Shown here one piece after another: positions 29,982 to 58,790 of a DNA stretch of 64,000 nucleotides; the stretch's first letter is position 1; every line of letters begins with the position of its first letter. A program made the position numbers and the translations under genes. This DNA is from Bolinopsis microptera. Its lineage: Eukaryota; Ctenophora; Tentaculata; Lobata; Bolinopsidae. Location of the stretch: positions 4,333,538 through 4,397,537 of the forward strand of contig NC_087084.1 in the NCBI RefSeq assembly GCF_026151205.1, in the 5' to 3' direction. The notes under the pieces were generated by a model that saw only the letters and a list, made by a program, of their open reading frames with translations, did no database searches and was not told the DNA's origin.

Positions 29982-30110
29982 ATATTACCGTCGTATCCTC
30001 TAAAATCACCTAATTTGTCCAATTTTCAAAGGTTATGCCACTGTGTCTGTAGCATGTAGGGTCAGTGTCTGTGAAGTAGCTGTAGAAGGTGTCTGTAGAG
30101 CAGCTGGACA

Positions 30111-30257: not shown

Positions 30258-30290
30258 CTGTAGAGTGTGTCTGTGTTATGTAGAGGGTTA

Positions 30291-30482
30291 CTGTCACCAA
30301 GATGTAATTAGATCGAACGCAGAAATTAGATCTAACCGGTTCGATCTAGGAATTAGATCGAACGCGCGGCGCGGCGTTCAATGTATTTGTATATGTATCT
30401 CGCGCGAGCGTTCGATCTAATTCCTAGATCAAACCGGTTCGATCTAATTTTTGCGTTCGATCTGATTACATCTTGGTGACAG
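30291..30482. mobile_element. Foldback MITE C (192 bp)
   Basis: Ends ctgtcaccaagatgtaat / attacatcttggtgacag, with about 75 bp of near-perfect inverted repeat built from gatcgaacgc and aaccggttcgatct modules. The loop has only about 40 bp. Second copy at 33395-33586. Confidence 0.8.
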
Positions 30483-31135
30483 TGCGGGTTTCGAATAATC
30501 ATTTAGGGCCACCTATAGAACGTGTTAGAAAAGTCAAGTGGCAGTTGAGCGTAGAGTGATTGATCATCATTAAAAATTCAGGTATTCACTATTCTAGGTA
30601 GTGCGCCATCGACAGTGAGCCGCGCGTGCCGACTGTAGGATGGTTTTTTAGCGCTAATTTCGGCCAGCACAATTTTCTTCAAACAAATAGATATTGAGTA
30701 TCGTTCCCGACCTCCGATTGCAACAAAAATTGGTGAGCTTACTCATAGACTTACAAGGAAAGTGTCCGAAAAATTTAAAGCATATCCAACCATCAGACAT
30801 TATGTTACAGCTAAAAGCAGCGTATTTTGCCCCATTTTGATCATTATATCAACTCTGATATCCACCAAATTTTTCGGACAGTTGTAAAAGCCCTATTGGA
30901 AGGTCGTCGTCAATTTTCAGAATGATCTCATTCAAGGAACTGAAGACATATTCAAATAATACGACAAAAATCAACGAATTTGGTCAAATTTGGTCAAATT
31001 ACGCGACTTTTACAGCTAATTTTGCTCCAAAAGCCGCGCACCATCAAATATGGCACCTAGGCGAAACTCACTGATCTTTCCAAAAAGGTATGACAAATTT
31101 GGTATTGTGAAAATTCTCACAGTCTCTAGAAATAG

Positions 31136-34100
31136 GAGGTGCACCATAAAAATAAACTTGCTCGGATTTCAAAATTTTTTGTACCATTGTAGCAGCGTTT
31201 CATTGACAACGGAAAAGACATAACAGGTATTTTAAGTTTGGAAGAACGAGCTCTATTGGATGCAGTTATCAACACTACAAGTCTATCTGATGTAAACAAA
31301 CTGATGAACGAAAACACAACTATTGTCGATAAGATTCTCAAACTTTATCTGAATAAGTAGTTGGTGGAACTTGCAACTGTTATACAATGATTTATGTACC
31401 CAATCTTACTCTTGATGATTTCAATTTATGATTATGGTGATAACAAAAAAAATATCAATTAAACGGTAGTTTTATTCGTCTCTTGAAATTCACCAAATTT
31501 ATAACACGCAAATTTAGTAGTTAATAATAGTCAATGGTATGGAGCCTTTGCTACCCCCTAGACTGCAGGGTGACAATGGGGTTCGATTCGCCCTGAACCT
31601 TTTGTGCAGAAGGCGAATGCTCTAACCACTAGGCTACCTAACAGTTGTTATATCTTAAAGGGTGAAAATGTGGTTCAGATACTGTAGCTATTGCTTAAAT
31701 GTCAGAAAATTGATGATAAGACTTGTAATTTCCAGGAGGTCGAGCGATGGTAACCCTACACCACATTTCGTTATGTCACCCTCTGTTTATTTGGAGTGGT
31801 GACTGGACCGGGGTAAATCGTGAAGAATCATTTGACCGGTAATCAAGTGACAGGAGCCTGCTTGGTAACCGTTTAATCAGACTTTAGATCCTTTAGACAG
31901 GATTATTGATTCATTCATCATGACGTTCTGACGGGTAATCAAGTGACTCCTGTCATGTGATCTCGAGGTTCAAATAACATTCATGTCACATGATGCTTAA
32001 GCTAAACACGTGACCGGTAATCAAGTGACAGGAACCTGCTTGGCAACCGTTTAATCAGACTTTAGATCCTTTAGTCGGGATTATTGATTGATTCGTCATG
32101 ACGTTCTGGCTCCTCATTGGTCAATTATCTTGTCACGTGACCTTGACATTTGATTGACGAGCTTGTCACGTGGTTACATGACATGTGATCTGTCACGTGA
32201 CGTGCTGTCACGTGACCTGGGGGCGTGCTGTGAGTGGCTGGGTGCCACTTGATGGCGGGCCTTCACAACTTACATACTACTACTCCCTCTGTACATCACT
32301 ACAATCTTTGTACGTACGACCGCCCACGTGCAAATTATACGAGAAATAAGTGGTTACAAAGTATAACCATGGTATTGGTAACGAGGGTTGTTACACGCAC
32401 GTCACGACTCACACGTGCACGTGCAAAGATTGTTAAAACGGCATTTTTATTGGTTTTGTTGATATTACGTTGTGTTTAGTGCGAGCAACATTTTAATTTT
32501 CGGTTGTGTATGATAATTTTGACTCGATTTAAACTTACTAACAACAAAATACTTCCTCCCTTGTATCACGTGCATGGTGACCCCCACTGTCGCTTCACTG
32601 TAGAGTTTCGACGATACAGGGGGAGCCGCGCACTCGTGCGCGGCGGGTCATACAACGTACGACAATTCCTCCCTAGCTGTAACCACGGGTTTTCTAGTCT
32701 ATATTATATTTTAAACTTGACGAAATCCCCCCGGCAACGGAAAAATTACCAAAAAATGACTCAGGTAACACTATAATTGTAGCTGATTGCAAATGGAGTT
32801 GTATTGAAACCTCGTATGATATAAAACACACTTTTTCAATATTACCTTGTCATACGTTGTATGACCCGCCGCGCACTTGACGGATGTTACTCGTCTAAAT
32901 TTCTTCGAAGTAGCGCGCGCCGCTTTCTTCTCGAAATGTGCCCGATGGCAAGTGCTACGAAGTAGCGCGCGCCGGGCCAGATCATTAACAATGGTCAACC
33001 GCGCACGAGTGCGCGGCTCCCCCTGTATCGTCGCGTCGAAACTCTACAGGGGTGAAGCGACCGTGGGGGTCACCACGTGATACAAATATTACCGTCGTAT
33101 CCTCTAAAATCACCTAATTTGTCCAATTTTCAAAGGTTATGCCACTGTGTCTGTAGCATGTAGGGTCAGTGTCTGTGAAGTAGCTGTAGAAGGTGTCTGT
33201 AGAGCAGCTGGACAAAGGATTTCGCGATTATTTTTGTCAAAATTCGCGATACCGCGATTTTTAACAGACTATACAATATACATTAAACTATAAATCAAAT
33301 TTGTCGCAAATAATGGGAAAAATCGCGATGCCGTACATGCCGCGATTTCCTTTTGTCCCTGCTGTAGAGTGTGTCTGTGTTATGTAGAGGGTTACTGTCA
33401 CCAAGATGTAATTAGATCGAACGCAGAAATTAGATCTAACCGGTTCGATCTAGGAATTAGATCGAACGCGCGGCGCGGCGTTCAATGTATTTGTATATGT
33501 ATCTCGCGCGAGCGTTCGATCTAATTCCTAGATCAAACCGGTTCGATCTAATTTTTGCGTTCGATCTGATTACATCTTGGTGACAGTGCGGGTTTCGAAT
33601 AATCATTTAGGGCCACCTATAGAACGTGTTAGAAAAGTCAAGTGGCAGTTGAGCGTAGAGTGATTGATCATCATTAAAAATTCAGGTATTCACTATTCTA
33701 GGTAGTGCGCCATCGACAGTGAGCCGCGCGTGCCGACTGTAGGATGGTTTTTTAGCGCTAATTTCGGCCAGCACAATTTTCTTCAAACAAATAGATATTG
33801 AGTATCGTTCCCGACCTCCGATTGCAACAAAAATTGGTGAGCTTACTCATAGACTTACAAGGAAAGTGTCCGAAAAATTTAAAGCATATCCAACCATCAG
33901 ACATTATGTTACAGCTAAAAGCAGCGTATTTTGCCCCATTTTGATCATTATATCAACTCTGATATCCACCAAATTTTTCGGACAGTTGTAAAAGCCCTAT
34001 TGGAAGGTCGTCGTCAATTTTCAGAATGATCTCATTCAAGGAACTGAAGACATATTCAAATAATACGACAAAAATCAACGAATTTGGTCAAATTTGGTCA

Positions 34101-34300
34101 AATTACGCGACTTTTACAGCTAATTTTGCTCCAAAAGCCGCGCACCATCAAATATGGCACCTAGGCGAAACTCACTGATCTTTCCAAAAAGGTATGACAA
34201 ATTTGGTATTGTGAAAATTCTCACAGTCTCTAGAAGTAGAAAACAATGGTACACAAATTTTTAAAATCCGAGCAAGTTTATTTTTATGGTGCACCCCCTA
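31136..34300. mobile_element. Possible composite element with 55-bp inverted ends enclosing copy 2
   Basis: gaggtgcaccataaaaata...accattgt at 31136-31190 is the inverted partner of acaatggtac...tatggtgcacc at 34243-34300, so the two lie as terminal inverted repeats around copy 2. This could be a DNA transposon that carries the block, or a small inversion left by the duplication. No transposase is seen. Confidence 0.4.
31191..34240. repeat. 3104-bp tandem duplication, copy 2
   Basis: Nearly identical to copy 1, including all three MITEs and the CACGTG-rich outer arm. It begins within the C2H2 ORF, so it carries only the C-terminal 57 codons of that frame (31191-31361). Confidence 0.9.
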
Positions 34301-39706: not shown

Positions 39707-39812
39707 GGTCCACTGTGCTCTGTGGTGAAGACTAATATTTAAAACGTGTAATATGACACGTGGGCGTAGTAATTATTATGCATGTTCATTGTTCAGGTGG
39801 TTTTGTAGAGGA

Positions 39813-40875
39813 ATCAGATGGTCCTGAATACGAACATAGCAGAGTAACGGCCCTGTGAGGGAGTGAGATGGTCCTGAATACGAACATTGCAGAGTAACGG
39901 CCCTGTGAAGGAGTGAGATGGTCCTGAATACGAACATTGCAGAGTAACGGCCCTGTGAAGGAGTGAGATGGTCCTGAATACGAACATTGCAGAGTAACGG
40001 CCCTGTGAAGGAGTGAGATGGTCCTGAATACGAACATTGCAGAGTAACGGCCCTGTGAGGGAGTGAGATGGTCCTGAATACGAACATTGCAGAGTAACGG
40101 CCCTGTGAAGGAGTGAGATGGTCCTGAATACGAACATTGCAGAGTAACGGCCATGTGAAAGAGTGAGATGGTCCTGAATACGAACATAGCAGAGTAACGG
40201 CCATGTGAAGGAGTGAGATGGTCCTGAATACGAACATTGCAGAGTAACGGCCCTGTGAAGGAGTGAGATGGTCCTGAATACGAACATTGCAGAGTAACGG
40301 CCCTGTGAAGGAGTGAGATGGTCCTGAATACGAACATTGCAGAGTAACGGCCCTGTGAAGGAGTGAGATGGTCCTGAATACGAACATTGCAGAGTAACGG
40401 CCCTGTGAGGGAGTGAGATGGTCCTGAATACGAACATTGCAGAGTAACGGCCATGTGAAGGAGTGAGATGGTCCTGAATACGAACATTGCAGAGTAACGG
40501 CCATGTGAGGGAGTGAGATGGTCCTGAATACGAACATTGCAGAGTAACGGCCCTGTGAAGGAGTGAGATGGTCCTGAATACGAACATTGCAGAGTAACGG
40601 CCCTGTGAGGGAGTGAGATGGTCCTGAATACGAACATTGCAGAGTAACGGCCCTGTGAAGGAGTGAGATGGTCCTGAATACGAACATTGCAGAGTAACGG
40701 CCCTGTGAAGGAGTGAGATGGTCCTGAATACGAACATTGCAGAGTAACGGCCCTGTGAAGGAGTGAGATGGTCCTGAATACGAACATTGCAGAGTAACGG
40801 CCCTGTGAGGGAGTGAGATGGTCCTGAATACGAACATTGCAGAGTAACGGCCCTGTGAAGGAGTGAGATGGTCCT
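39813..40875. repeat. 50-bp minisatellite, about 21 copies (left part of a split array)
   Basis: Exact 50-bp period (agagtaacgg ... gagtgagatggtcctgaata). All three minus-strand frames are open across the whole array because the unit has no stop in any phase. These 330-350 aa frames are not genes. The array continues at 47949 after the LINE. Confidence 0.95.
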
Positions 40876-41238
40876 TTTTATCAATAAACTTTCAAATTGT
40901 TACACAAATACATCATTTTATTTCAAAGAAAATATCGCCGAATGACCTTACATGCCTTGACAAGTGACCGAGTGTAAACAAAATAAGGGACACCGAAACA
41001 CCAGTTGACCAGTAAACTGATCATAGCAATTACATCGGGCCCTAAATGCACCTATAAGTGAAGCGATGCTGCAACCAAGGCATGCTAGGTTTATTCCATT
41101 GAACTAATAAGGTTACAGCCTAAAATATAAATATAATAAATAACAATGTACCATAAATCATAATTATAAACACACTTTATTTAACATATTTTATTAATTA
41201 TACTTCATATCAATTTATATTTAGACAATATAGTTACA
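40876..41238 (-). other. 3' UTR of the LINE
   Basis: AT-rich, between the ORF2 stop and the minisatellite. No repeat tail longer than ttgataaaaa is seen. Confidence 0.5.
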
Positions 41239-44200
41239 TTAAGGTAAATTGTCAGAGGATGTTATATGGTCGTTTAGAACTGTCCAGAGGTACTTAATTA
41301 AATGGGTTTTAAACACGGATGGCCTTGAGATTTCCCTTAATTCATAAGGGAGTTTATTCCAAAGAATGTGTGCTCTGTAAAAGTAAGACTTAGATATGCC
41401 TGAACATCTGGTCTGGCTTGACGTAAGGTTTTGTGGAACTTGAGGAGAAATGTCACTAATCATACTGAGATCGTCTAGATGTGATCGCCTTAACCTACTT
41501 CCCATGAAACGTCGTAAGTAAGGTGGAAATGTCACAACTGACATGTCATAAAAAATATTATGAAAATATAATATATCCTTGTAATCAAACCTTACCGAGA
41601 GTGGAAGGATATTTAGTTCCTTACACGCTATGAAATACCTTTTTTTGTCCCTAAGGCTCAAGTAAATATCATTAAGGATCCACTTGATACCTCTTTTTTG
41701 TATCGATTCAAGTTTCTCCACCGAGGTTTCTGAATGAGGCCGCCAGACAATTGTGCAGTGTTCGAAATGACTTCTAACCTGAGATAGATAGAAGGCCCGA
41801 CGTTTTTTAGTGTTCTTGGTGAAGTAACATGTTCTTTTTAGAAGGCCTAACCTCTGACTAGCCTTAGAGTATATCATATCACAGTGATGTGACCAATCTA
41901 ACTTACTATTGATATGTACTCCAAGATCTTTTTCAATGTCTGTGTATTCGATAGCCGTTTCATTCATTGAGTACACAAAATTAACACTACGATTCATAGA
42001 ATATGCTCGGGTAATAGAAAGAACGTGACTTTTTGAAGGGTGAAACACCATCTTATTATGATGAGCCCAATTTTGAAGACTGTTAATATCCCGCTGGAGC
42101 AGCCAATGGTCATCCTGGGACGTGATTCTACGCCATATTTTTGTATCATCAGCATACATGGTTATATTTGTTTCCGGTGACAAATCCTCTGTAATGTCAT
42201 TAAGAAAAAGTATAAATAAAGTAGGCCCTAAAATTGAGCCCTGGGGGACACCTGATCTAACCTGACAGGGAGCAGACATTTTATTTCCAATGACAACCCT
42301 TTGGTATCTGTTTTCAAGGTAGCACTTGAAGAATCTCAGTAGAGATGCATCAATGTTATATTGTTCTTTGAGCTTCAACAGAATTATGTCGTGGTTGACA
42401 GAATCAAAAGCTTTTTGGAAATCAAAGTATATTATGTCAGTGCGAACATTGTCATTGAGAGATAGGGCTAAGCTGTCACAGAAATTTACTAGCTGAGTTG
42501 TACATGATTTCCTACTCATAAAACCATGTTGACGTTGATCAATAAGATGTTCACATCGATTGAGCAATTCATCCCGGATTACTTTTTCGTAAACTTTCAT
42601 AATAATGCTTGTCAGAGAAATTGGCCTATAGTTGTTAACTTCAATTTTAGAGCCTTTTTTATGAACTGGAACAACGTTTGCCATTTTCCAATCTGCTGGA
42701 ATACATCCAGTTTTATAAGAAGCTTCAAAAAGGATAGCAAGAGGCTTAGACAGGCTCACTGAACAGTACTTTAAAATTCTTCCATGGATATTGTCGGCCC
42801 CTTGCGCTTTACTTGGATCAATATTTTCAAGTAAACCTTTGATTTTACAAGTGTCGAAATTGACCTGAAAATCACGGTCACTGGAAAAGTCGATATCTAT
42901 ATCATAATCACTACCCTCTGTAAACTGTTCGTTAAAATATTTATTGAATAACTCACACTGTCCTTGCGGATCGGACCGTAGGCAACCATTGTAGCTGACT
43001 GTTTCAGGAATGCGATTAGAGTTTGATTTAGATTTCACAAAAGACCAGAACTTTTTGTTAATGAGATTTCTGTTATCATCATCTTCAAAGTTTGCGTCCA
43101 ATTTTGCATCAACGAGATTTTTAAAATCCCTCCTAGCTTTGGAAAATTTTAAATATTTTTTTGGATTAGAAGACTGTTTCCATTCGTCATGTAGTCGCTC
43201 CTTTTTTCTACATAAATCAAAGACATCTGAGTCAAACCATGGGGGTTGAAATTCATCGGAGACAGATATCTTAGGAATATGTGAATTACAACGAGAAGTG
43301 AAAATAGTATTGAAAACTGACCAGGCCTCTTCGACTGGTTTACCACTAAGTAGATGTTCCCAGTTTTCAGAATTCAGTGCATTATTTAAATTGGTCCAAT
43401 TGGCCCTTTTGAAGCTATAGATTTTTCGTTTGGTAGACTTTTTCTTTCTAGCGTTAAGTCTTATGTCAAATCTTATCGCATAGTGATCCGACCCACAAAT
43501 ACCATGTTTACTGTCAACAATTAATTCTGATATAATTTCTGGCTTATCCGTCAAAACTACATCTAGAACATTTCCCCTGTAATGTGTAGGGTCTGTTACC
43601 AGCTGCTGTAAAGATAAATCATTAAACGTATCAATGAATGCTTGTTCAATAGGAACAGAGGAGGAGCCCTCATCCCATCTGACCTGGGGCATATTCAAAT
43701 CACCAACCAAGGTAATGCTCTGTACTCTTCTACGCCTACGGATGTTATGTAGGTATTGCTTGACTCTATCATGGTTATCATTGCCAAGTGTGCCAACTCT
43801 GTAGAACGAGCTTAATATGGATTTTCTTCCTAACTTGTCAGAAAGCTCAATACTCAAAATCTCGGCTCTACATTTGACAGGAATGATTTTAGATTCTATG
43901 TCAAGACAATGTTTTATGGCAATAAGGACACCACCCCCATTTACTCTGAATTTCCGACTATTCTGGGGGTCCGGGGGATGAGTAAAGCTAGAACGGTCAA
44001 GTCTAAATACTTTGTAATCAGCTGTCGAGATGATTTCACTATCATGGATATTGTCCTTTAACCATGTTTCATTATAAACTACAATATCTGGTTTATTGAT
44101 ATAAATAAAATGGTTTAGTTCGTGAATTTTTGTAGAGTGGAGAGTGGGATTTGCATCTCCAAGTTCACCAAAAGGGATCAAGCCCTGAACGTTACAATAA

Positions 44201-44829
44201 AAAACTGAGCAGTTTCCCGGGGGTCCTGGATTTTTCATGCTAGGGTTACAAATAAAGATAAGGAGAAAGTTTATGAGTAGTATCCAAAGGTAAAGTGATG
44301 CAGTTATATTTTGTAGATATGGGATTAAGCCTCGTTTGGAATTGTATTTAACAAAGAACGTATGTAGTGTTTTACCTCTAATAGATAAGCTACTCATTGT
44401 ACGTCTAATTGCAATACCAAAGATAACAAGGTAGAAATTGCAAAGTAAATTACCAAGACTGTTAATATTTAGTAGGAGTGGAGATTTAATAAGCTGTATC
44501 AGTTTAGCAGGGTTTGTAGGTGGGTTTTCCAAAATACAGGTGGTAAAACAGAGTAACATAACAAGGACGAAATAATAGTACATAAAAGCAAGACATATGT
44601 GATGTGGTTTGAATGAGTTTTGAACGGGTGTGGAGTGTATTACTGAATTCTTTGTTCTCTTCTTGTTTGAGTGGCTATTATTAAAGTAGCCAATACGTTT
44701 TCTATATGTTTCTAACTCAATCATGTGAAATCTAACAATAAAACGACCAACTGTGGAGCAATAATTCCCTTTACGGTGTGTAATTTGTACTTGTATTATT
44801 GTCCGTGTCCAGTTTGTTTGCGTGATCAA
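41239..44829 (-). CDS. LINE ORF2: hydrophobic N-terminal extension, 2A-like motif, endonuclease and reverse transcriptase, 1196 aa
   Basis: Residues 1-200 are not endonuclease. They contain three hydrophobic stretches (about 80-99, 127-141 and 178-194) and end CNPSMKNPGP, with NPGP at 200-203 (44221-44232), the invariant core of 2A ribosome-skipping peptides. The APE-type endonuclease follows (about 205-455): Glu254 in YNETWL, GDLN at 376-379, SDH at 447-449. The reverse transcriptase (about 715-980) has YFDFQKAFDS (Asp803), RSGVPQGSILGP and catalytic YADD at 892-895. The C-terminal part has the RTCYFTKNTKKR and HCTIVWRPHSE blocks usual for CR1/L2 ORF2. No stop or frameshift, so the protein could be functional. 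The start is the first Met of an open frame; a shorter start is possible. Confidence 0.9.
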   Translation of the reverse strand: MITQTNWTRTIIQVQITHRKGNYCSTVGRFIVRFHMIELETYRKRIGYFNNSHSNKKRTKNSVIHSTPVQNSFKPHHICLAFMYYYFVLVMLLCFTTCILENPPTNPAKLIQLIKSPLLLNINSLGNLLCNFYLVIFGIAIRRTMSSLSIRGKTLHTFFVKYNSKRGLIPYLQNITASLYLWILLINFLLIFICNPSMKNPGPPGNCSVFYCNVQGLIPFGELGDANPTLHSTKIHELNHFIYINKPDIVVYNETWLKDNIHDSEIISTADYKVFRLDRSSFTHPPDPQNSRKFRVNGGGVLIAIKHCLDIESKIIPVKCRAEILSIELSDKLGRKSILSSFYRVGTLGNDNHDRVKQYLHNIRRRRRVQSITLVGDLNMPQVRWDEGSSSVPIEQAFIDTFNDLSLQQLVTDPTHYRGNVLDVVLTDKPEIISELIVDSKHGICGSDHYAIRFDIRLNARKKKSTKRKIYSFKRANWTNLNNALNSENWEHLLSGKPVEEAWSVFNTIFTSRCNSHIPKISVSDEFQPPWFDSDVFDLCRKKERLHDEWKQSSNPKKYLKFSKARRDFKNLVDAKLDANFEDDDNRNLINKKFWSFVKSKSNSNRIPETVSYNGCLRSDPQGQCELFNKYFNEQFTEGSDYDIDIDFSSDRDFQVNFDTCKIKGLLENIDPSKAQGADNIHGRILKYCSVSLSKPLAILFEASYKTGCIPADWKMANVVPVHKKGSKIEVNNYRPISLTSIIMKVYEKVIRDELLNRCEHLIDQRQHGFMSRKSCTTQLVNFCDSLALSLNDNVRTDIIYFDFQKAFDSVNHDIILLKLKEQYNIDASLLRFFKCYLENRYQRVVIGNKMSAPCQVRSGVPQGSILGPTLFILFLNDITEDLSPETNITMYADDTKIWRRITSQDDHWLLQRDINSLQNWAHHNKMVFHPSKSHVLSITRAYSMNRSVNFVYSMNETAIEYTDIEKDLGVHINSKLDWSHHCDMIYSKASQRLGLLKRTCYFTKNTKKRRAFYLSQVRSHFEHCTIVWRPHSETSVEKLESIQKRGIKWILNDIYLSLRDKKRYFIACKELNILPLSVRFDYKDILYFHNIFYDMSVVTFPPYLRRFMGSRLRRSHLDDLSMISDISPQVPQNLTSSQTRCSGISKSYFYRAHILWNKLPYELREISRPSVFKTHLIKYLWTVLNDHITSSDNLP
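44221..44232 (-). other. 2A-like NPGP motif in ORF2
   Basis: Residues read SMKNPGP, followed by another Pro. The canonical upstream D-[VI]-E-x is replaced by P-S-M-K, so activity is uncertain. Placement just after a hydrophobic segment and just before the endonuclease matches 2A sequences reported in APE-type LINEs. Confidence 0.5.
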
Positions 44830-45241
44830 CGCCCGTCCGTGATTAGTTATACTATCATAATCAGTTATGTGATGTAATCACGTAACTGTAGAATTCATTT
44901 TCATCTATTTAAATTGAGAAAATAAGCAATATTCTGAGAAACGGAGATAACTCGTCTTAGATTAGATAAGATGTGATCAGCCAATCAGCTCATTCGAAGA
45001 GTGATGGACATAGATGCTGGACTAATATTGAGGCTCATGATGAATTAAAATTATACGTGATATTATTTAGGTATAACTTAGGCTGAAATTTGTTCGAATT
45101 TAGTTTACAGGTTATTATGGTGGATTTATAAGGTGACCATTTCCGCAGTTTGTTCTGTCAGCTACATGCTTGTTTAGTCGGTCTTGTTCTGTTCTTGAGT
45201 GAAATTGTTAAGTAGTGCAGCAATTCTATCATAAAGATTAA
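44830..45241. other. Spacer between ORF1 and ORF2
   Basis: 412 bp without protein-like frames. It is much longer than the usual LINE overlap or short gap, so how ORF2 is translated is unclear. Confidence 0.4.
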
Positions 45242-46828
45242 TCACTTAACACGAAAAGAAAACTGACATAATAAATTTCTATACTGGCGCCGCAGGGGCA
45301 GATATCCTCTCTTTAGTCCTAGAGAAAGTAGAATGCAGTGAACCCAACACTCAGATAGCACGGATTGACCAGACAAATTAAAGTGAAGGCCATCTCGTGC
45401 CAGGTGTGAGGTGCCAAATTTCAAGTTATCAAACAGTTTGAAGTTAGAAGTATGAACTGAAAGTTCGAACAATGTCATGTTCAGCTGGTCGATAGATTTG
45501 TTCATGTTGTTGAATCTGTCGGCGCTCATGTTGAGAGGTGAAATTGAATCAAAAATGAACTTAGTGTTTTTATATTGATTCACTGAGCGTTCAACAAAGT
45601 TGTGTAGAGTCGAGGGGTGAACGCGGTGTTTTCTGAGGTCGTTGATGCCCGCAGAGAGGAGAACAACATCAGCCTGCTCAATGGATCTGCAGTGCTGGTG
45701 TAGATCCCGCAGATGAAAGAGATCCTCTCTGAAGGCAACAACTGGCTCATGCAATGTGGAACAATCAAACGACTTATTCTTCGAATCTGAAAGAATCAAC
45801 ACCCTTTTAGGCCGAGCATGACTAGAATTACCCCTCTGGTATGGTGCTGATGCATGGCGAAGGACCCTGCAGGTAATGCTAATTCTAGTGCCAGAGAAAT
45901 CTTGTTCCTTGACCCGGGGTACACTGTGGTCAAACACATCCTGGCTAGCCCGAGTCATCGTGTACATTGACCCATGTTCTGGGGTCAGGGAGAACCGCTT
46001 ATAGCTACCAGGTGGTTTTATTCTGAACACTACGGGGCGAGGGGCACCCAGCGTGATGGTTAGAATGGTGCTTTCTGGGTCTATTGATGGCTCGTTATCA
46101 CTGTGTGGCGGGATGTGTGAGATATGGTTATCATATTTGGTCACGAGGAAACTGTTGAACGGTTTGGCCTGGTCAGGGAATAGGGAGTTCAAATGATCAA
46201 CAATATTCGCCAGATAAGTGTTGGTGCTGATTTCACGTGCCACATGGCGGCCTCCAGCATACTCATAAGGCATGTTCCCATAGTGGGCAACTTTCCTATT
46301 TCCAAAATTGCGGTCATATGTTGTGTTGTTGTCCAAATGCGCAGCTTGAAACTGTTTAAATAAATTTTCTGCATAAAGTGTATAAGGCATGATACCTTCA
46401 GGCTCCAGGTTACTAGTACTGCGAGTTGTTGAGGATGGTGTAGGTAGGATGGCAGGAGTCGGCAGGAGGGGGACGTCACGGGCTGCAGGAGCTGCTGGCT
46501 GTTGTAGGTCTTTAACGAGCGTCTGGGCACGGACTACGTTCTCCTTCAGCTGCTCCAGTTGTTTGTTTGCTTCCGACACGTGCCTCGCAAAATTAGAGGT
46601 TAATTTGTTGAGATCGTGTGTTAAGTCGGTGCTGTCTTCTATGACTACTTGTTTAAAATGTTCAGTAAGCGAGTTACTTTTACGTATTTTGCCTCGAGCT
46701 TTGATGAACTTCTCATTACAAGTTCTTTCGAGTTCAAGTGTCATTTGATCTTCCGAGAGCTGATCAACAAGGTCAAGGCAGAGTTGTGGGCAAAACAAGA
46801 AAATGAAAATTAATGTAATAAGATACAT
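45242..46828 (-). CDS. LINE ORF1 (main part): coiled coil, AlkB-type dioxygenase and SGNH hydrolase domains
   Basis: In this 528-aa frame the first 13 residues come from the inserted 465-bp segment; authentic ORF1 begins PQLCLDLVDQ. Residues about 68-110 are a likely coiled coil and 110-145 are Pro/Ser/Thr-rich. Residues about 150-325 match AlkB-type 2-oxoglutarate/Fe(II) oxygenases: HSDNE (His242, Asp244), VFDHSVP (His301), and GTRISITCR with Arg315 and Arg321, so all metal and co-substrate ligands are present. Residues about 340-505 are an SGNH hydrolase: LSDS (Asp348-Ser349), SAGIND (Gly394, Asn396), DGLHFNLSG (Asp479, His482). AlkB enzymes remove alkyl groups from nucleic acids, so repair or demethylation of the element RNA/cDNA is a plausible role but is inference. 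Confidence 0.85.
   Translation of the reverse strand: MYLITLIFIFLFCPQLCLDLVDQLSEDQMTLELERTCNEKFIKARGKIRKSNSLTEHFKQVVIEDSTDLTHDLNKLTSNFARHVSEANKQLEQLKENVVRAQTLVKDLQQPAAPAARDVPLLPTPAILPTPSSTTRSTSNLEPEGIMPYTLYAENLFKQFQAAHLDNNTTYDRNFGNRKVAHYGNMPYEYAGGRHVAREISTNTYLANIVDHLNSLFPDQAKPFNSFLVTKYDNHISHIPPHSDNEPSIDPESTILTITLGAPRPVVFRIKPPGSYKRFSLTPEHGSMYTMTRASQDVFDHSVPRVKEQDFSGTRISITCRVLRHASAPYQRGNSSHARPKRVLILSDSKNKSFDCSTLHEPVVAFREDLFHLRDLHQHCRSIEQADVVLLSAGINDLRKHRVHPSTLHNFVERSVNQYKNTKFIFDSISPLNMSADRFNNMNKSIDQLNMTLFELSVHTSNFKLFDNLKFGTSHLARDGLHFNLSGQSVLSECWVHCILLSLGLKRGYLPLRRQYRNLLCQFSFRVK
46361..46789. repeat. 429-bp duplicated ORF1 segment, copy 1
   Basis: Identical as far as I can read to 47255-47683. 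Covers the coiled-coil and Pro-rich part of ORF1. Confidence 0.9.
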
Positions 46829-47254
46829 TTGATTATGGCACAGTCAATCTGTCTCAGTTACTAACCATACCAAGAAGACGATGAGCCGGCCAAAATGATA
46901 AATGTTCAGACCAAACGGACGAAATAATCAAACATCTAGAGATCTAGATTCTAGAGCTCATGAATTCTAATGAGAGCAGTAGGGGTGTCAGTCAGCTGAT
47001 AATAGAACTATTTTATGATATCATTCCCATATGAGGAGGTAATAATGGGTAATTATATCACACCGGGATCAATAAGTCTTATATCTGACAATGTCTTGTC
47101 CTTTGTTCATATTGAAATGAAGCAGTCCCGTGTTATAAATAGAGGTATTATACTGAGTACCGGTATCTTGGCCATCATTAAATCTTTTCGAAGTACGGAA
47201 ATTTGTAAGAGAATGGAATCTAATTTATTTTGTACCCAGTGGAGATTTAAAAAA
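46790..47254 (+). repeat. 465-bp insert inside ORF1, copied from the flank
   Basis: Matches 48413-48877 at a constant offset of 1623 bp with only a few differences (gagctcatg/gagctgatg, cgaagtacgg/cgaaatacgg). Junctions show short shared bases (ggg on the left, aaa on the right). It has an 80-aa plus-strand frame, present in both copies, with no recognised family. Confidence 0.85.
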
Positions 47255-47845
47255 TAAATTTTCTGCATAAAGTGTATAAGGCATGATACCTTCAGGCTCC
47301 AGGTTACTAGTACTGCGAGTTGTTGAGGATGGTGTAGGTAGGATGGCAGGAGTCGGCAGGAGGGGGACGTCACGGGCTGCAGGAGCTGCTGGCTGTTGTA
47401 GGTCTTTAACGAGCGTCTGGGCACGGACTACGTTCTCCTTCAGCTGCTCCAGTTGTTTGTTTGCTTCCGACACGTGCCTCGCAAAATTAGAGGTTAATTT
47501 GTTGAGATCGTGTGTTAAGTCGGTGCTGTCTTCTATGACTACTTGTTTAAAATGTTCAGTAAGCGAGTTACTTTTACGTATTTTGCCTCGAGCTTTGATG
47601 AACTTCTCATTACAAGTTCTTTCGAGTTCAAGTGTCATTTGATCTTCCGAGAGCTGATCAACAAGGTCAAGGCAGAGTTGTGGACTAAATGACTTCATGG
47701 TAGTTTGAGTGCCCCTATCTACCGTACCTGTGTAAAGGGGGTCTGCCAGGTAGCCCTTAGAGTCTGCGGTAGCGGTGGGCGTGCCGCTACCTGGCAGCCC
47801 GAGAGTCCGTTGAGAAGAAGTTGGAGTGTTTGTAGTGGTATCCAT
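47255..47845 (-). pseudogene. LINE ORF1, true N-terminal part, cut off by the insert
   Basis: Starts MDTTTNTPTSSQRTLGLPGS, a Thr/Ser/Pro-rich N-terminus, and runs through the coiled-coil region to MPYTLYAENL, where the 465-bp insert brings an unrelated tail and a stop at 47225. With the part at 46789-45242, an uninterrupted ORF1 would be about 570 aa. The start is the only good Met, about 100 bp from the 5' end of the element. Confidence 0.8.
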
Positions 47846-47948
47846 GGTCAGTCAGCAAGGAATAATTCGCGTCGCACAGTCGGTCTTCTTATCAGTTTTA
47901 ATCCATTAGCGAATTTAAACAAACGTATTTAAAAATTGCAAATGAGTA

Positions 47949-48147
47949 TCCTGAATACGAACATTGCAGAGTAACGGCCCTGTGAGGGAGTGAGATGGTC
48001 CTGAATACGAACATTGCAGAGTAACGGCCCTGTGAAGGAGTGAGATGGTCCTGAATACGAACATTGCAGAGTAACGGCCCTGTGAAGGAGTGAGATGGTC
48101 CTGAATACGAACATTGCAGAGTAACGGCCCTGTGAAGGAGTGAGATG
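47949..48147. repeat. 50-bp minisatellite, four copies (right part of the split array)
   Basis: Same unit, same orientation and same phase as 39813-40875. Confidence 0.95.
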
Positions 48148-51100
48148 AGTGAACTAATGAATTGTGCTATTAGTGACTTGACAAATGTGGAGTTAACCAC
48201 TGTTAGGATGATTGCAAGTAAGGTAGCGGTGTTATATTATACCTGTCCCCTATAATAATGATATACTGCAGCTAGTTATTATGTTAATTATAAATTCAGC
48301 TGTCATAATGTGAGTTATGATTTGCCAGTTTGCCACTGTGAGGAGGCTGGTATTGAGCAATTCTCACTGGCCAATGTGTGTATGTGCTCCTTCAGCAAGA
48401 TGATTGTTGAGGGCAAAACAAGAAAATGAAAATTAATGTAATAAGATACATTTGATTATGGCACAGTCAATCTGTCTCAGTTACTAACCATACCAAGAAG
48501 ACGATGAGCCGGCCAAAATGATAAATGTTCAGACCAAACGGACGAAATAATCAAACATCTAGAGATCTAGATTCTAGAGCTGATGAATTCTAATGAGAGC
48601 AGTAGGGGTGTCAGTCAGCTGATAATAGAACTATTTTATGATATCATTCCCATATGAGGAGGTAATAATGGGTAATTATATCACACCGGGATCAATAAGT
48701 CTTATATCTGACAATGTCTTGTCCTTTGTTCATATTGAAATGAAGCAGTCCCGTGTTATAAATAGAGGTATTATACTGAGTACCGGTATCTTGGCCATCA
48801 TTAAATCTTTTCGAAATACGGAAATTTGTAAGAGAATGGAATCTAATTTATTTTGTACCCAGTGGAGATTTAAAAAACAAAAACTTTAAAATTGCTATAA
48901 TATTATACATATGAAACGGAATCAAGTCAGTCCGCTATTGCCTTATCAAAATGAAATGCAAATTGTAAAAGCAAAAAGATTTACACTGGCGCTGCATCGA
49001 TCCCTCACACTGCACCTTTACAATTCAGCTCATTACATTAATTTCAGCATGAACCTTATATATCTAATCTACACTTGGGGTCTATCATCCACAATACCGT
49101 ACCACCATGAAGCATTCCTTCCTTATACGCGATGGTATTTTAACACGAGTTTTTAATCAACTTTTAGTAAGTCAGCGTTTTGACAGCGATAATATGTTTT
49201 ACCATTATATTTGTACCTGCAGAATTTCTACGTTGTCTTGGAGCACCTCTGGTTCGGGTTCTGGTGGTATTCGCAGGCCTGGTGGCTACTTCCTTCGTCT
49301 CCATGCCTTTGAGTTGGCGATTTGTATTAATTGTGTATGATCTGACCTTCGAGGTTAATCCAAAAGTTAGAAATATCTTATTAATCTCCATGGAGATCGT
49401 TGATTATTCAAGAGCTTCATGCATTTATTTAAATCGAATCAACCCTACTTGATTCAGATCAAAATATATTAATTATGGAAATTCAACACTATAAATGAAG
49501 AGGAAACTAGATCATCAAGACAATCTAGATCTCCTATCTACGATTATACCACATCTTAAGTCTAAAACAAGCGATAGCACATTCCACGCTTAATAACCTA
49601 AACCAAACAACCACGCTCGGGAAAGATAACCCAAGCGGGAAAGAAGTGATGATCATCTTTACAGAAGAGAAGAAAAATAGGCCAAATAAGCTAATCGACA
49701 GCTGCGCTCAGAACATAAACGATATGATCTGAATTAAAAGATGTCAACATTAACCCTGACAATGTGTATGTAATCGGCAATTTGAGCACCGCGTGCTAGG
49801 AACAGCCCGCCAGTATCCTGTCTGGACACTGGTCACGTGACCAATCAGCCCACGTGGCCAATCAGCCGGATTTAAACATGTGTAGTTCTACTGGACAAGT
49901 GCTTGGTTATTTAGGAGTAAACACGTGTGGAAGGAGTGAGGTCAATTAGCAGAAGGGAGGGTTAATGGAGTCATGATCACACCAGGAGTAGGATAATTCA
50001 TCTTCCTACAGGGTGGCAAGGAGGAGTAACAACTGTGAGCACTCGGCAAGGAGGAGTAACAACTGTGAGCACCTTAGGTTCATTTTAGCCAACTTTACGT
50101 CAGGGCGTACGTGTTTCCCTTCTCTTTGATATGATATCGTGCTGTTTAACTGGAATTAGGTCTAACCGAGCACTGATCTAGAGTCGGCTAAAAACCGGTC
50201 TGTAGCCGCCTAAGAGTCGGTCGAGATCAGCCGAACTATAGCCACCTAAGAGTCAGTCTAGAGCCGAGCTATAGTCGGCTAAGAACCGGTCGAGAGCCGA
50301 ACTATAGCCACCTAAGAGTCAGTCTAGAGCCGAACTATAGTCGGCTAAGAACCGATCTATAGTCGGCTAAGAACCGGTCTAGAGTCGACTAAGAGCCGAT
50401 CTATAGATTCGGCTAAAAGAGCCGGGTTATGACCGATTTACACCGACTAAGAGTTGGCAGTGAATATATTATTCAAACCAGCTGCTTACCATCTTTAAAA
50501 ACAGCTCATGTATATTATATATGTATGTAGTAAGCTAATCCTTTTTAAGAAACAACTCTTAGAAGTGCCGGAGTCATGTGAACACCACGCGTGTTATGTG
50601 AACACGTGGTATCAGGATTATAAAGGAGTTGACTAAACTTAATTGTAGAGAAGTAGGACGACCCAATCTTACAAACGGTTAGGAAAACTAAAAACACAAC
50701 AAGTCGGAAGAAATAAATGTAAAATTAATATTTTCACTGGATAAGCTGAACCATCCCGGAAGTTAAGTGAAATTAATGACGGAATGATAAGAAGACACGT
50801 ATATTATATAACGAGAGTAAAACTAAGAGAGTAAAATTAACGTGATGCATGTAACTGTGTGGGGAGCAGGGTAGAAGGAGGTGGTGAGGTTTGTTTAACC
50901 CGGCCCCTGCTACCTGGATAGTAATCTAATTCTACTTACGATAGACACGTATTAAATTCCACTGATCTAACCATCTCAAACCGTTATAAAACTACCTAAT
51001 AGACCGATATTTAATGTTAGTATTACGTTACTAGTGTATTTTGTGTTAGAAAATAGACAGTGCATTTATGTTGATGTTATGTATTGTGAGTTACGTGATA

Positions 51101-51164
51101 TGAGTAGTTTCTGTTGAGTGGTATGACGAATGCGGTAAATAATTTGATAATAATGGCTCTTTTA
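48148..51164. other. Intergenic DNA; holds the source of the 465-bp insert and two small repeats
   Basis: 48413-48877 is the second copy of the insert seen in ORF1. 50010-50072 has two copies of a 28-bp unit (ggcaaggaggagtaacaact). 50160-50450 is a degenerate satellite (see next entry). 49205-49355 contains a hydrophobic open frame bounded by cctgcag and gaggtt, which could be an exon but has no recognised family. Confidence 0.5.
50160..50450. repeat. Degenerate satellite (gtcggctaagaaccggtc type)
   Basis: Variants of gagccgaactatagtcggct and aagaaccggtctagagtc alternate at about 25-30 bp spacing. Confidence 0.75.
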
Positions 51165-51199
51165 AAGCCCCCTCCCGGGTTGCAACATTGCCATGTTAC

Positions 51200-51700
51200 G
51201 CAAATAATTGCCGCGCTAACGAAATATTTGCCATCTTAGCAAAATATGCGCCGTGTTATGATGTATTTGCCAGGCTGCGCGTGATGATGCAAATATTTCA
51301 TAAGGAGGCGAATTTTACGTTAGGAAAATGCGCATTCTTAGCAAAATATTTGCCAAACGGTCAGACGCGCGCTGCACGCTCCTTTTTAGTTTGTTTACGC
51401 GAGAATGAAATCTTCGCATTCTTAGCAAAATATTCGCCTCCTTATAATTTATTTGCGCGAGAGTTAAATCTACGCTTTCTTAGCAAAATATTCGCCACCT
51501 TATAATTTATTTGCGCGAGAGTTAAATCTACGCTTTCTTAGCAAAATATTCGCCACCTTATAATTTATTTGCGGGAGAGTTAAATCTACGCTTTCTAAGC
51601 ATAATATTTGCCGCCTTATAATTTATTTGCGGGATCAGAGTCAAATCTAGCTACGCTTTCTTAGAAAAATCTTTGCCACCTTATATTTTACATAACTTCA
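51200..51700 (+). repeat. ~58-bp tandem repeats in the outer left arm
   Basis: Units gcaaaatattcgccacctta / taatttatttgcgcgagag / ttaaatctacgctttctta recur about five times with drift. Related units occur at 53140-53420, 54040-54300, 56740-56970 and 58265-58760. Confidence 0.85.
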
Positions 51701-52729
51701 TTTGTGATAGGAATTAGGATCATATGCTGCTTACGACTCTGCAGTGGATCACATACTGTAGGTATACGTGGATTGAACTGACCCGAAGGAATTATGATCA
51801 GTGGATCGAAATACATAACGTGACCGACGAATCGCGTCCACAAGATCACTTCGAAATAAGTAACGTGAACCGGCCTGACGAATCACTTGATGAGTTTATG
51901 ATCCAAAAGAAGGATAGAATCTGACCTGAACTTGGAAATAAGATAGGATATTGTGTCGCACTGAATATAATAGAGTACGCTACCTGGATTGTAGTGCGAC
52001 ACATACTGTAGTCAGTGTAGTGCGAAAGATTACTTTTATAGTGTTAGCAGTTAAAATTCTAAACTTCATCCCGTTTCAAATATCAAACCACAGTACGAAT
52101 TATTGCACTAATGCCGGTTATAATGAGGTCTAAAACACACGCTCAAAGTTAAAGTGTGTTTATATTTACCAATTAAACTTTAGTTGATGTTAACTTGTTA
52201 ATTATAACTGTGTACGAGTACGACTACCTACCTACCTAACAGTAACCGCTTCGATTTGTTTAACAAAACATCATTTTCCGAACTAGAGTGCGGTACCTAT
52301 GACTTAGACTTTACTCCGCTAGAAACAACAAAATTTAAACAATTGGACAGTAGCGAATCTACCTAGCGAACTTTAGTGTTAGAACTTAGCGGTGACCGAC
52401 AACTAGGAACCTCTCATTCCGGCCTCCCACAGCTAGGTATCACATGACATGGCCCAATCAGTGACGTATCATTTGTGATGTGATCCATATTATTCACATG
52501 ACAGTTTAGTAAGTAGTTGTGTCTGAGAAGTGTTTGAGCTCTCGGCATGTGTTCACATAACGGACGTGAGCCAGGTCCAAAAGGGGCTGGTTCTCGTATC
52601 CAAGGATGTGAGCCGAGCATGCACTGAAGCGGAAAGCTGCTGAACAGCCCAAGGCAGTAGAGCCAAGGCGTCCGGATCTGCACAGCACTCTGAAGCGAAG
52701 ACCTCAGAAGAATTCCTCCTTCCTTCTAC

Positions 52730-52936
52730 ATGCACCTCCACGAGACGGGCCCTTTGTTATCTTCGGCGGGAAGACAGATCGGAATGTACGAGTCGTTGCC
52801 TTCTTTACAGCCCGGAACCTTGCTACGCTGGCATGGTAGCAACTGGATTGCAGACGGCACGTTTTACGTCGCCCCGAATATATTCACCCAGAGCTATACG
52901 ATTCATGCTGTTATTGACCAGAAATTTTTGCTGTGA
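52730..52936 (+). pseudogene. MULE transposase fragment (left arm)
   Basis: WIADGTFYVAPNIFTQSYTIHAVI is the start of the MULE-type DDE transposase domain (the Asp of ADGTF is the first catalytic residue). The preceding LLRWHGSN fits the strand before it. The frame ends shortly after (KFLL, stop), so the second Asp and the Glu are missing. Only about 65 residues remain, so this is a relic or one exon of a longer gene. Confidence 0.65.
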
Positions 52937-53798
52937 AATCAGTGGATACCTGAAGATTGAGAGATGGACGCCTCGAGATTGTTCTACAAGGGCCCCCGAC
53001 TGTTTAAACCAACAAACTTTTTGTGAATTACCTAAGTTATGTTTGTAAACAGTAAAATAACTAATTCGTCAATCATGGATATGCAGATGATCCATTTTCT
53101 CTCAAAACTTAAAACTCCGTAATATTTTAAATCGATTTACTCGCGCATTCTTGGAAAAATAATTGCCAAACAGTTTTACGCGCGTTGCACGCCCCTTTTT
53201 GGTTTGTTTACGCGAGAATGCAATCTTCGCATTATTAGCAAAATATTCGCATCCTTATAATTATTTGCGCGACGCAAATAAATCTTCGCTTCCTTAGGGA
53301 AATATTCGCCACCTTATAATTTATTTGCGAGAGGATTCAATTTGTGTTTTTTATGTTCGCGCAGTTCTTAGCAAAATATTTATCTGAACGAAAGCTCAAA
53401 ATTTACCGAGAAATTGACCGTCTAATTAATCTATTTTGATGACTGTTTCTGACCTCAAAATTTATGTTTTATAGTTAATACGAGCAACAAGCAACGCCAA
53501 CATGTAGGTATATTGTATTGATTCTTCGGTTCTACAGCTCTTGACCTAGGGCTGAAACCGTAAGATCGAGGCAATCCTCATCTCAACTGATCGAACTTGA
53601 TCGGAGAGCAGAGTACGACAAAACACAGCAGGTACCTAAGCAATTCATTTTTGTGACTGTTCCTCACCTGTACAACGTTGCACGAGAAATCGATTTAAAT
53701 TGGTTTTACAGCCCTAATCATGACCTACGGAGTTGAACTTAAGCTGAGACCGAAAGATCGAGGCAATCCTCACCTTCAATGATCGAACAGGTACTACT

Positions 53799-54770
53799 AA
53801 CATCGATCACGTGATATGACCGTAAGTTGACCCGAACTAAAGTCAACTACCTTCTGAACACGCACTAAAGTCCACCAGGGAAATATATTGAAAAATATAT
53901 TTTGTCAAACTCGAAGAAAACTTCTTGTGAATTACCTAAGTTATGTTTGTAAACAGTAAAATAACCAATTCGTCAATCATGGATATTGGATATGCAAATG
54001 ATCCAGTTTCTCTCTAAACTTAAAACTTCGTGATATTTCAATCGATTTTACTCGAATTCTTTAAAAAATATTTGCCTAATAACGGTCTGACGCGCGTTGC
54101 ACGCTCCTTTTTAGTTTGTTTACACGAGAATGAAATCTTCGCATTGTTAGCAAAATATTCGCCTCCTTATAATTTATTTGCGCGAGAGTTAAATCTACGC
54201 TTTCTTAGCAATATATTCGCCTCCTTATGATTTATTCGCGCGAGGATTGAATATGCGCGTTTTTAAGTTCTTACTTCTTAGCAAAATATTTATTTGAACG
54301 AAAACTCAAAATTTACCGAGAAATCGACCTTTTTATTAACTCATTTTGATGACTGTTTCTGATCAGAAATTGCACGAAAAATCGATTTAACTAGGTTTCA
54401 GAACCTATAAACAATTCTTTATCCGTCAAAATTGATTTTTTATAGTTAATACGAGCAACAAGCAACATATATTTTGATCCTATTATATGGTTCTACTCAT
54501 GGTATGACCTAGGGAGTTAAGCTGAAACCGAAAGATCGAGGCGATCGAACAAGTAGGTACTAACACAATTTTCAGATAGAAATGTTCGTTGCAATATTAT
54601 TTTTATTGCAGCTTTGCAACTTGAGCGAAGTAAAGAACAAAGTACGAAAAAACACAGCAGGCAAGCAACTCATTTTGGTGACTATTCCTCATTTAACTGC
54701 TAACGTTGCACGAGAAATCGATTTTAGTTGGTTTTAAAGCCCAATAACGCTTTTACGCTTCATTAGAGAC
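53799..54770. repeat. Second, diverged copy of the inner left-arm module
   Basis: gtgaattacctaagttatg at about 53927 repeats the phrase at about 53022, and the match continues with drift to the GA satellite. It has no partner in the right arm. Confidence 0.7.
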
Positions 54771-56248
<1,478 letters not shown>

Positions 56249-57175
56249 ATTAGTACCTGTTCGATCATTGAAGGTGAGGATTGCCTCGATCTTTCGGTCT
56301 CAGCTTAAGTTCAACTCCGTAGGTCATGATTAAGTGATTAGGGCTGTAAAACCAATTTAAATCGATTTCTCGTGCAACGTTGTACAGGTGAGGAACAGTC
56401 ACAAAAATTAATTGCTTACCTGCTGTGTTTTGTCGTACTCTGCTCTCCGATCAAGTTCGATCAGTTGAGGTGAGGATTGCCTCGATCTTACGGTTTCAGC
56501 CCTAGGTCAAGAGCTGTAGAACCGAAGGATCAATACAATATACCTACATGTTGGCGTTGCTTGTTGCTCGTATTAACTATAAAACATAAATTTTGAGGAA
56601 CAAGGATTTGTTTATAGGTTCTGAAACCTAGTTAAATCGATTTTTTGTGCAATTTTAGGTCAGAAACAGTCATCAAAATAGATTAATTAGACGGTCAATT
56701 TCTCGGTAAATTTTGAGCTTTCGTTCAGATAAATATTTTGCTAAGAACTGCGCGAACATAAAAAACACAAATTGAATCCTCTCGCAAATAAATTATAAGG
56801 TGGCGAATATTTCCCTAAGGAAGCGAAGATTTATTTGCGTCGCGCAAATAATTATAAGGATGCGAATATTTTGCTAATAATGCGAAGATTGCATTCTCGC
56901 GTAAACAAACCAAAAAGGGGCGTGCAACGCGCGTCAAACTGTTTGGCAATTATTTTTCCAAGAATGCGCGAGTAAATCGATTTAAAATATTACGGAGTTT
57001 TAAGTTTAGAGAGAAACTGGATCATCTGCATATCCATGATTGACGAATTAGTTATTTTACTGTTTACAAACATAACTTAGGTAATTCACAAAAAGTTTGT
57101 TGGTTTAAACAGTCGGGGGCCCTTGTAGAACAATCTCGAGGCGTCCATCTCTCAATCTTCAGGTATCCACTGATT

Positions 57176-57387
57176 TCACAGCAAAAATTTCTGGTCAATA
57201 ACAGCATGAATCGTATAGCTCTGGGTGAATATATTCGGGGCGACGTAAAACGTGCCGTCTGCAATCCAGTTGCTACCATGCCAGCGTAGCAAGGTTCCGG
57301 GCTGTAGAGAAGGCAACGACTCGTACATTCCGATCTGTCTTCCCGCCGAAGATAACAAAGGGCTCGTCCCGTCTCGTGGAGGTGCAT
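57176..57387 (-). pseudogene. MULE transposase fragment (right arm)
   Basis: Mirror of the left-arm fragment, again reading WIADGTFYVAPN. Small differences upstream (ctcgtcccg for gggcccttt-like sequence) change the frame of the N-terminal side. Confidence 0.65.
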
Positions 57388-58790
57388 GTAGAAGGAAGGA
57401 GGAATTCTTCTGAGGTCTTCGCTTCAGAGTGCTGTGCAGATCCGGACGCCTTGGCTCTACTGCCTTGGGCTGTTCAGCAGCTTTCCGCTTCAGTGCATGC
57501 TCGGCTCACATCCTTGGATACGAGAACCAGCCCCTTTTGGACCTGGCTCACGTCCGTTAAGTGAACACATGCCGAGAGCTCAAACACTTCTCAAACACAA
57601 CTATTTACTAAACTGTCATGTGAATAATATGGATCACATCACAAATGATACGTCACTGATTGGGCCATGTCATGTGATACCTAGCTGTGGGAGGCCGGAA
57701 TGAGAGGTTCCTAGTTGTCGGTCACCGCTAAGTTCTAACACTAAAGTTCGCTAGGTAGATTCGCTACTGTCCAATTGTTTAAATTTTGTTGTTTCTAGCG
57801 GAGTAAAGTCTAAGTCATAGGAACCGCACTCTAGTTTGGAAAATGATGTTTTGTTAAACAAATCGAAGAGGTTACTGTTAGGTAGGTAGTCGTACTCGTA
57901 CACAGTTATAATTAACAAGTTAACATCAACTAAAGTTTAATTGGTAAATATAAACACACTTTAACTTTGAGCGTGTGTTTTAGACCTCATTATAATATAC
58001 ACAATATCCTATCTTATTTCCAAGTTCAGGTCAGATTCTATCCTTCTTTTGGATCATAAACTCATCAAGTGATTCGTCAGGCCGGTTCACGTTACTTATT
58101 TCGAAGTGATCTTGTGGACGCGATTCGTCGGTCACGTTATGTATTTCGATCCACTGATCATAATTCCTTCGGGTCAGTTCAATCCACGTATTATACAGTA
58201 TGTGATCCACTGCAGAGTCGTAAGCAGCATATGATCCTAATTCCTATCACAAATGAAGTTATGTAAAATATAAGGTGGCAAAGATTTTTCTAAGAAAGCG
58301 TAGCTAGATTTGACTCTGATCCCGCAAATAAATTATAAGGCGGCAAATATTATGCTTAGAAAGCGTAGATTTAACTCTCCCGCAAATAAATTATAAGGTG
58401 GCGAATATTTTGCTAAGAAAGCGTAGATTTAACTCTCGCGCAAATAAATTATAAGGTGGCGAATATTTTGCTAAGAAAGCGTAGATTTAACTCTCGCGCA
58501 AATAAATTATAAGGAGGCGAATATTTTGCTAAGAATGCGAAGATTTCATTCTCGCGTAAACAAACTAAAAAGGAGCGTGCAGCGCGCGTCTGACCGTTTG
58601 GCAAATATTTTGCTAAGAATGCGCATTTTCCTAACGTAAAATTCGCCTCCTTATGAAATATTTGCATCATCACGCGCAGCCTGGCAAATACATCATAACA
58701 CGGCGCATATTTTGCTAAGATGGCAAATATTTCGTTAGCGCGGCAATTATTTGCGTAACATGGCAATGTTGCAACCCGGGAGGGGGCTTT

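Follow-up and report, generated by a model that had tools for sequence, protein, structure and literature searches.

AlkB-like and SGNH esterase-like domains in the ORF1 of LINE retrotransposons from the ctenophore Bolinopsis microptera

The AlkB family consists of enzymes that strip methyl groups from DNA and RNA. Human ALKBH3 and ALKBH2 are stand-alone repair enzymes, unlike the ORF1-fused AlkB domain described here, and likely host genes for both are also present in the genome that encodes the fused domain. To our knowledge, the AlkB systems of plant RNA viruses, compared with the present locus by description only, involve neither an SGNH domain nor reverse transcription. The viral domains (Alpha- and Betaflexiviridae, Closteroviridae) likewise reside in a selfish element that copies itself through RNA and demethylate RNA in vitro, as cited in the available sections of PMC9289625. 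The same sections describe an AlkB retrotransposon of orchids, a Ty3/Gypsy element with an ALKBH5-like ORF, whose protein was an m6A demethylase in vitro. The orchid system is a plant LTR element with a separate ORF of the ALKBH5 clade in one lineage, whereas the type reported here is found in an animal, in non-LTR elements and Helitrons, is ALKBH3/2-like and has an SGNH domain on the same protein.

The type IV ORF1 of the CR1/L2/RTEX LINEs, for example ZfL2-1, likewise has a coiled coil and an SGNH hydrolase and precedes an ORF2 with endonuclease and reverse transcriptase (PMC3905857, PMC4120745, both in part). The survey in PMC4120745, as far as its text was available, placed the esterase-type ORF1 in vertebrate groups only, and PMC3905857 (2013) called this type unique among LINE ORF1s in having an enzyme. 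The word AlkB did not occur in the available text of PMC3905857, nor dioxygenase in that of PMC4120745. In contrast to type IV, the ORF1 described here has an AlkB dioxygenase between the coiled coil and the SGNH domain, and some of its relatives also have weak PHD-like matches; it is thus a variant of the type IV (esterase) ORF1 with an extra domain. The original prediction knew of no LINE ORF1 with AlkB, and no LINE or Helitron of this kind appeared in the accessible portions of the open-licence literature, which included PMC9289625, PMC4120745, PMC3905857, PMC5408684, PMC11797021 and PMC11294593, so that an earlier mention elsewhere is possible.

The window, the whole stretch of 64,000 nucleotides of B. 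microptera DNA that was analysed, contains an AP-endonuclease LINE (Table 1), with a reverse transcriptase and an AP-type endonuclease, an ORF1 upstream on the same strand and dispersed copies that have common ends. The ORF2 matched PF00078 (RVT_1, 4.4e-29) and PF14529 (1.6e-10) in Pfam and had 119 relatives, and the solved reverse transcriptases nearest to it were those of R2 and L1 ORF2p. No long terminal repeats were found by self-BLAST among matches longer than 150 bp, which comprised only the flanking minisatellite, an internal duplication and a copied flank.

Table 1. Coordinates of the LINE, its flanking DNA and the two Helitron loci
Feature	Position	Strand	Remarks
Whole LINE insertion	40875..47942	-	5' end near 47942, 3' end at 40875; ends by L036 alignment
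5' part of ORF1	47252..47845	-	start ATG 47845; N-terminus and coiled coil; ORF 47225-47845
Internal duplication splitting ORF1	46358..47251	-	self-BLAST; missing from L036
Make-up of the duplication	46358-46795 and 46796-47251	-	second coiled-coil part and 5'-flank copy, respectively; self-BLAST
3' part of ORF1, AlkB and SGNH	45242..46795	-	stop at 45242-45244
Predicted long helix (coiled coil)	46502..46690	-	residues 47-109 of the 528-aa frame; AlphaFold model
AlkB-type 2OG-Fe(II) dioxygenase domain	45854..46405	-	residues 142-325; ligands H242, D244, H301, R315, R321
SGNH/GDSL hydrolase domain	45251..45814	-	residues 339-526; S349, G394, N396, D479, H482
ORF2 frame	41239..44829	-	endonuclease ~43474-43788, reverse transcriptase ~41995-42663; Pfam
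3' UTR	40875..41238	-	terminal sequence GATAAAAA
50-bp minisatellite, 3'-side flanking DNA	39809..40874	.	~21 units
Same 50-bp minisatellite, 5' side of LINE	47949..48147	.	~4 units
Helitron protein, L030	G000:C10:16874000-16883500		single open frame, 3032 codons or more
Helitron protein, L005 and L029	G000:C12:2468326-2476800		L029 overlaps and continues the end of L005

The window copy is about 7.07 kb long, as compared to about 6.18 kb for a colinear copy, L036, which aligned with 40875-46795 (99.3%) and, overlapping, with 47252-47942 (99.6%), the alignment stopping at both ends. The ORF2 frame runs through without a break in the window copy; that of L036 is broken. The original prediction had placed ORF1 at 45242..47845; both its start and its end held, and the start, MDTTTN, is common to L036 and two further copies, L038 and L039, but the gene is not one open frame. 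Self-BLAST showed that a 438-bp block occurs twice (46358-46795 and 47252-47689, 99.5%) and that a 476-bp copy of the 5' flank is present (46783-47258 and 48406-48881, 99.2%). In L036, which lies on another large contig, a single block stands in place of the two of the window; the gene-splitting duplication belongs to the window copy or to its assembly.

The 3' end of the LINE coincides with the boundary of a 50-bp minisatellite and the same minisatellite lies just past the 5' end, so the element sits inside that array, with a possible short target-site duplication, at most TCCT (4 bases), at the junctions. The array is the insertion site of the window copy; about 10 flanking bases of L036 do not match it. 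Elsewhere in the window, self-BLAST detected a large inverted repeat at 51164-58790. Its arms, 793, 1350 and 352 bp long, match at 96-99.6%, and the whole forms a near-palindrome of some 7.6 kb. A 3.25-kb sequence recurs inverted at 99.9% (20361-23610 and 29177-25929), and a direct repeat (28069-31135 and 31173-34239, 99.8%) lies in the same region, 20361-34239. A Gag-like ORF with two CCHC zinc knuckles (PF00098, 1.4e-9) occupies 14639-15457 on the plus strand.

The 3' part of ORF1 was read in a minus-strand frame of 528 aa (46828 to 45242). PF13532 matched residues 175-321 with an E value of 8.9e-16 (59.1 bits, cut-off 31.2), within the segment, residues 150-325, for which an AlkB match had been proposed. 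The five ligands, predicted as a complete HxD, His, Arg...Arg site, are invariant across 36 aligned rows (35 of the 46 database relatives plus the window itself), and they align with the HSD, His and R...R of ALKBH3. The same HxD...H and R...R ligands are kept in all 98 rows of a wider AlkB alignment that takes in very diverged families. The AlphaFold model of the window frame has the AlkB fold in this domain, and one long helix ahead of it fits a coiled coil; the fold matches cover mainly AlkB and barely the SGNH part. The predicted order of coiled coil, AlkB site and SGNH site was confirmed by the Pfam match, the invariant residues and the modelled helix. The prediction of a complete SGNH site was borne out in its residues. 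In the 36 rows, S349, G394, N396 and H482 do not vary and D479 hardly does, and block I of the window ORF1 reads SDS. PF00657 (0.0017) and PF13472 (0.0019) remained below the Pfam cut-offs, at 19 bits against 23.6 and 32.9, and there was a weak profile match to 2hsj (E 0.016).

The AlkB part is not confined to one copy; such confinement would have counted against the original prediction. Among the 7993 best word-sharing candidates, 46 protein relatives of the window ORF1 were counted, all with a precomputed PF13532 and 17 also with PF13472, so the presence of AlkB in ORF1 is not due to chance. One relative is named Mnemiopsis leidyi, and three others (P0014, P0023, P0031) bear the source name 'alkylated DNA repair dioxygenase AlkB'. 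The genome comprises 264.65 Mb in 232 contigs, of which C1-C13, 15-26 Mb each, sum to about 258 Mb. A search of the genome with the window ORF1 gave at least 83 matches (82 of 800 candidates scored). Among the matches listed, four other loci have 98-99% identity and an open frame of 571 codons, one more has 98% with 506 codons, and further subfamilies lie at 59, 58, 54, 49, 46 and 43%. These near-identical loci show that the window family moved recently. Three of the four, L036, L038 and L039, were read, and each encodes 569 aa from the shared start, unbroken in L036. Hmmscan (E 0.05) gave no PF13532 line for L036 and L037, though L036 shares 98% identity with the window frame; the AlkB profile built in this analysis scored them at 218 and 212 bits, and the missing lines were taken as filter loss. 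No ORF of 150 aa was found downstream of the L037 ORF1 within the 3.35 kb seen. In viral_contigs and genome_contigs, 17 and 46 pattern matches to ORF1 were obtained and 0 were confirmed.

AlkB-bearing ORF1s also occur in other LINE lineages of the genome. PF13532 gave at least 151 matches (150 of 587 candidates scored), from which 20 and then 5 loci were chosen by frame length, mostly long frames. The AlkB ORF1 was followed by a reverse transcriptase on the same strand in 18 of the 20 and all 5 of these loci; of the two exceptions, L010 is cut short after 2.3 kb, and in L028 an insertion of about 4.4 kb moves most of ORF2 outside the fetched stretch. These loci supersede an earlier hint of linkage from P0012 and P0089, whose source contigs both have a length of 5989. 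The ORF2 of L035 is in two pieces, and Pfam matched the reverse transcriptase of L027 and L034 with no endonuclease match. Nine of 12 ORF1s (window, P0001, L011, L023, L025, L027, L031, L032, L034) had both an AlkB and an SGNH-type match in Pfam, every one of the latter below cut-off. L035 has AlkB and no SGNH Pfam line, with GDS, GxND and VHL motifs present in its sequence; L036 and L037 have SGNH lines. AlkB and SGNH lie at 102-278 and 628-758 in L034, and the PHD-like matches precede AlkB in L031, L032 and L035. A profile search with seven other ORF1s added 36 database proteins, all 36 with a precomputed PF13532. Two of these, P0200 (928 aa) and P0201 (902 aa), have another architecture, with PF00857 and other Pfam domains, and branch near the host AlkBs. 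An esterase without AlkB also occurs here: a second LINE-like pair at 3388-9849 of the window (minus strand) comprises an ORF with SGNH (9849 to 8068) and one with endonuclease and reverse transcriptase (5871 to 3388), neither of which gave an AlkB match.

One further family, L009-L022, was picked for a frame of 551-552 codons, so the intactness of its 14 copies is by choice. Their ORF1s of 550 aa have a mean pairwise identity of 99.2% (minimum 97.9%). Compared with L011, the 3' end is common to 11 of the 13 other copies, and the 5' end to nine of those 11; in the remaining two, L014 and L022, the initial 0.1-0.25 kb is missing. An interruption of about 1.9 kb occurs in L016. Of ten copies displayed, most have one to three TCAA units following on from the 3' end; CR1/L2 elements are known to carry short repeats at their tails. 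In 10 copies of this family the best candidate target-site duplications were matches of 0-7 bp.

Among the very long AlkB frames, the two that were read both encode Helitron proteins, with SGNH and AlkB ahead of Rep and a PIF1 helicase in about 2500-3400 codons, so that the order is SGNH-AlkB in Helitrons as against AlkB-SGNH in LINEs. L030 matched SGNH (1.2e-5, below cut-off), AlkB (6.7e-21), DUF6570, Helitron_like_N (4.8e-22) and PIF1 (9.9e-22); the other comprises L005, with AlkB and an SGNH match below cut-off, and L029, with Helitron_like_N and PIF1. Identity of the N-terminal 800 residues of L030 to about a dozen loci was 36-100%, and some of these loci are broken (56 of 4951 candidates scored); frames of 540 and 630 codons are among the weaker matches, at 28-44%.

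The AlkB tree held 98 domains, with hits shorter than about 110 profile columns and near-copies left out. Three likely host genes, labelled by their PDB matches as ALKBH2 (L001), ALKBH3 (L002) and a second ALKBH3-like gene (L003), group together (97/78), and the transposon domains are separate from them, with the exception of L034, which joins the host genes. The AU test did not reject a single transposon clade that includes L034 (p 0.414), and the reading in which L034 had acquired its AlkB separately, in a second event, was therefore dropped. The Helitron pair was placed among the PHD-type LINE domains, a weak join with long branches. In the reverse transcriptase tree, which carries no named references and was used only for the spread of AlkB elements, these fall in at least four groups: the window's; L011 with L025 and L027; L023 with L031, L032 and L035; and L034. 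The ORF1 type of the database sequences and of the fragments L009, L017 and L019 is unlabelled, which makes counts of changes on this tree uninformative.

L025 and L027 are 97.7% identical over 3.47 kb of ORF2 and 3' part (ORF2 98% in amino acids), while their ORF1s are 70% identical in nucleotides where alignable (55% in amino acids), from which we infer an ORF1 swap between near-identical elements. The AlkB domain of this pair is under purifying selection, with dN 0.22 and dS 1.9 (NG86) or 0.24 and 2.0 (YN00), a result from one pair with dS near saturation; the N-terminus gave 0.25 and 1.41 and SGNH was saturated. In the window family, three near-identical ORF1s differ by 1-2 synonymous and 2-3 nonsynonymous codons per pair, with no sign of constraint among the three copies. 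Against L037 and L040, dS was saturated for AlkB and SGNH.

The domains, their order, the conserved ligands, the many copies and the linkage to reverse transcriptase are established at the level of sequence; the coating of RNA by ORF1p and a repair role for AlkB are proposed extensions of them. We give an even chance to the reading that the element is an autonomous, recently mobile non-LTR retrotransposon, the ORF1p of which joins a coiled coil, an ALKBH3/ALKBH2-like AlkB and an SGNH esterase, and that AlkB repairs the single-stranded template or cDNA of the element. ORF1p would coat the RNA of its own element and the AlkB domain, with Fe(II), O2 and 2-oxoglutarate, would remove base-pairing-face methylation (1-methyladenine, 3-methylcytosine) from the single-stranded RNA template or the nascent cDNA, so that target-primed reverse transcription could reach its end. 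The esterase may link the particle to membranes, as proposed for ZfL2-1. Such methylation blocks reverse transcriptase, and full-length cDNA is recovered in vitro after treatment with AlkB (PMC7968990, in part). According to the accessible part of PMC3905857, the esterase-type ORF1ps in Repbase have no structured RNA-binding domains, so AlkB could bring both grip and repair, and may also provide a nucleic-acid contact that these proteins otherwise miss. The fold matches human ALKBH3 solved on single strands; the likeness is one of fold and sequence, from which the substrate preference is presumed. Helitrons have a single-stranded DNA intermediate, and the same enzyme pair in these elements fits a role in single-strand repair.

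It is unlikely, though a live alternative, that the domain is instead an epitranscriptomic or epigenetic eraser that takes host-written m6A off the element's RNA, or 6mA or 5mC off its DNA, and so escapes silencing. The orchid retrotransposon enzyme acts as an m6A eraser, which keeps this explanation alive, and AlkB, ALKBH2 and ALKBH3 can oxidize 5mC (PMC7968990, available text). The absence of structured RNA-binding domains from the esterase-type ORF1ps would also suit an AlkB fold serving mainly as a single-strand binding module in place of the RRM and zinc knuckles, with catalysis secondary; we consider this improbable, since pure binding has no need of the five metal and 2-oxoglutarate ligands kept in all 98 rows. 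Somewhat less probable again is a trans-acting enzyme with nucleic acids or proteins of the host as its targets, which might for instance blunt a damage or immune response to retrotransposition, for the location of AlkB inside ORF1, presumed to coat RNA, and inside a Helitron replication protein points to the element's own nucleic acid. That AlkB here is a host gene lying next to a LINE, or the product of an assembly join, is barely credible in spite of the rearranged window copy, because 1) copies lie on other large contigs, one of them colinear with common ends, 2) ORF1 is linked to reverse transcriptase across several families and 3) the likely host ALKBH2 and ALKBH3 genes are elsewhere in the genome and, except for L034, branch apart from the transposon domains.

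Beyond the repair of its own template or cDNA by the window element, we tentatively suggest, as somewhat less than an even prospect, that AlkB and SGNH form a two-enzyme cassette that circulates as an exchanged module within one animal lineage between transposon classes that are unrelated, namely several lineages of LINEs and giant Helitrons, for the repair or demarking of single-stranded intermediates. This would imply a host defence that methylates or damages the nucleic acid of transposons. As a caution, the name 'AlkB' in metagenome databases can be attached to proteins of transposons. LINE ORF1 proteins are poorly understood, and the conservation of a dioxygenase across many copies, several lineages of LINEs and Helitrons suggests that modified bases in the element's nucleic acid limit transposition enough to be countered enzymatically. 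The elements described here may offer an entry to testing host nucleic-acid methylation against transposons in early-branching animals.
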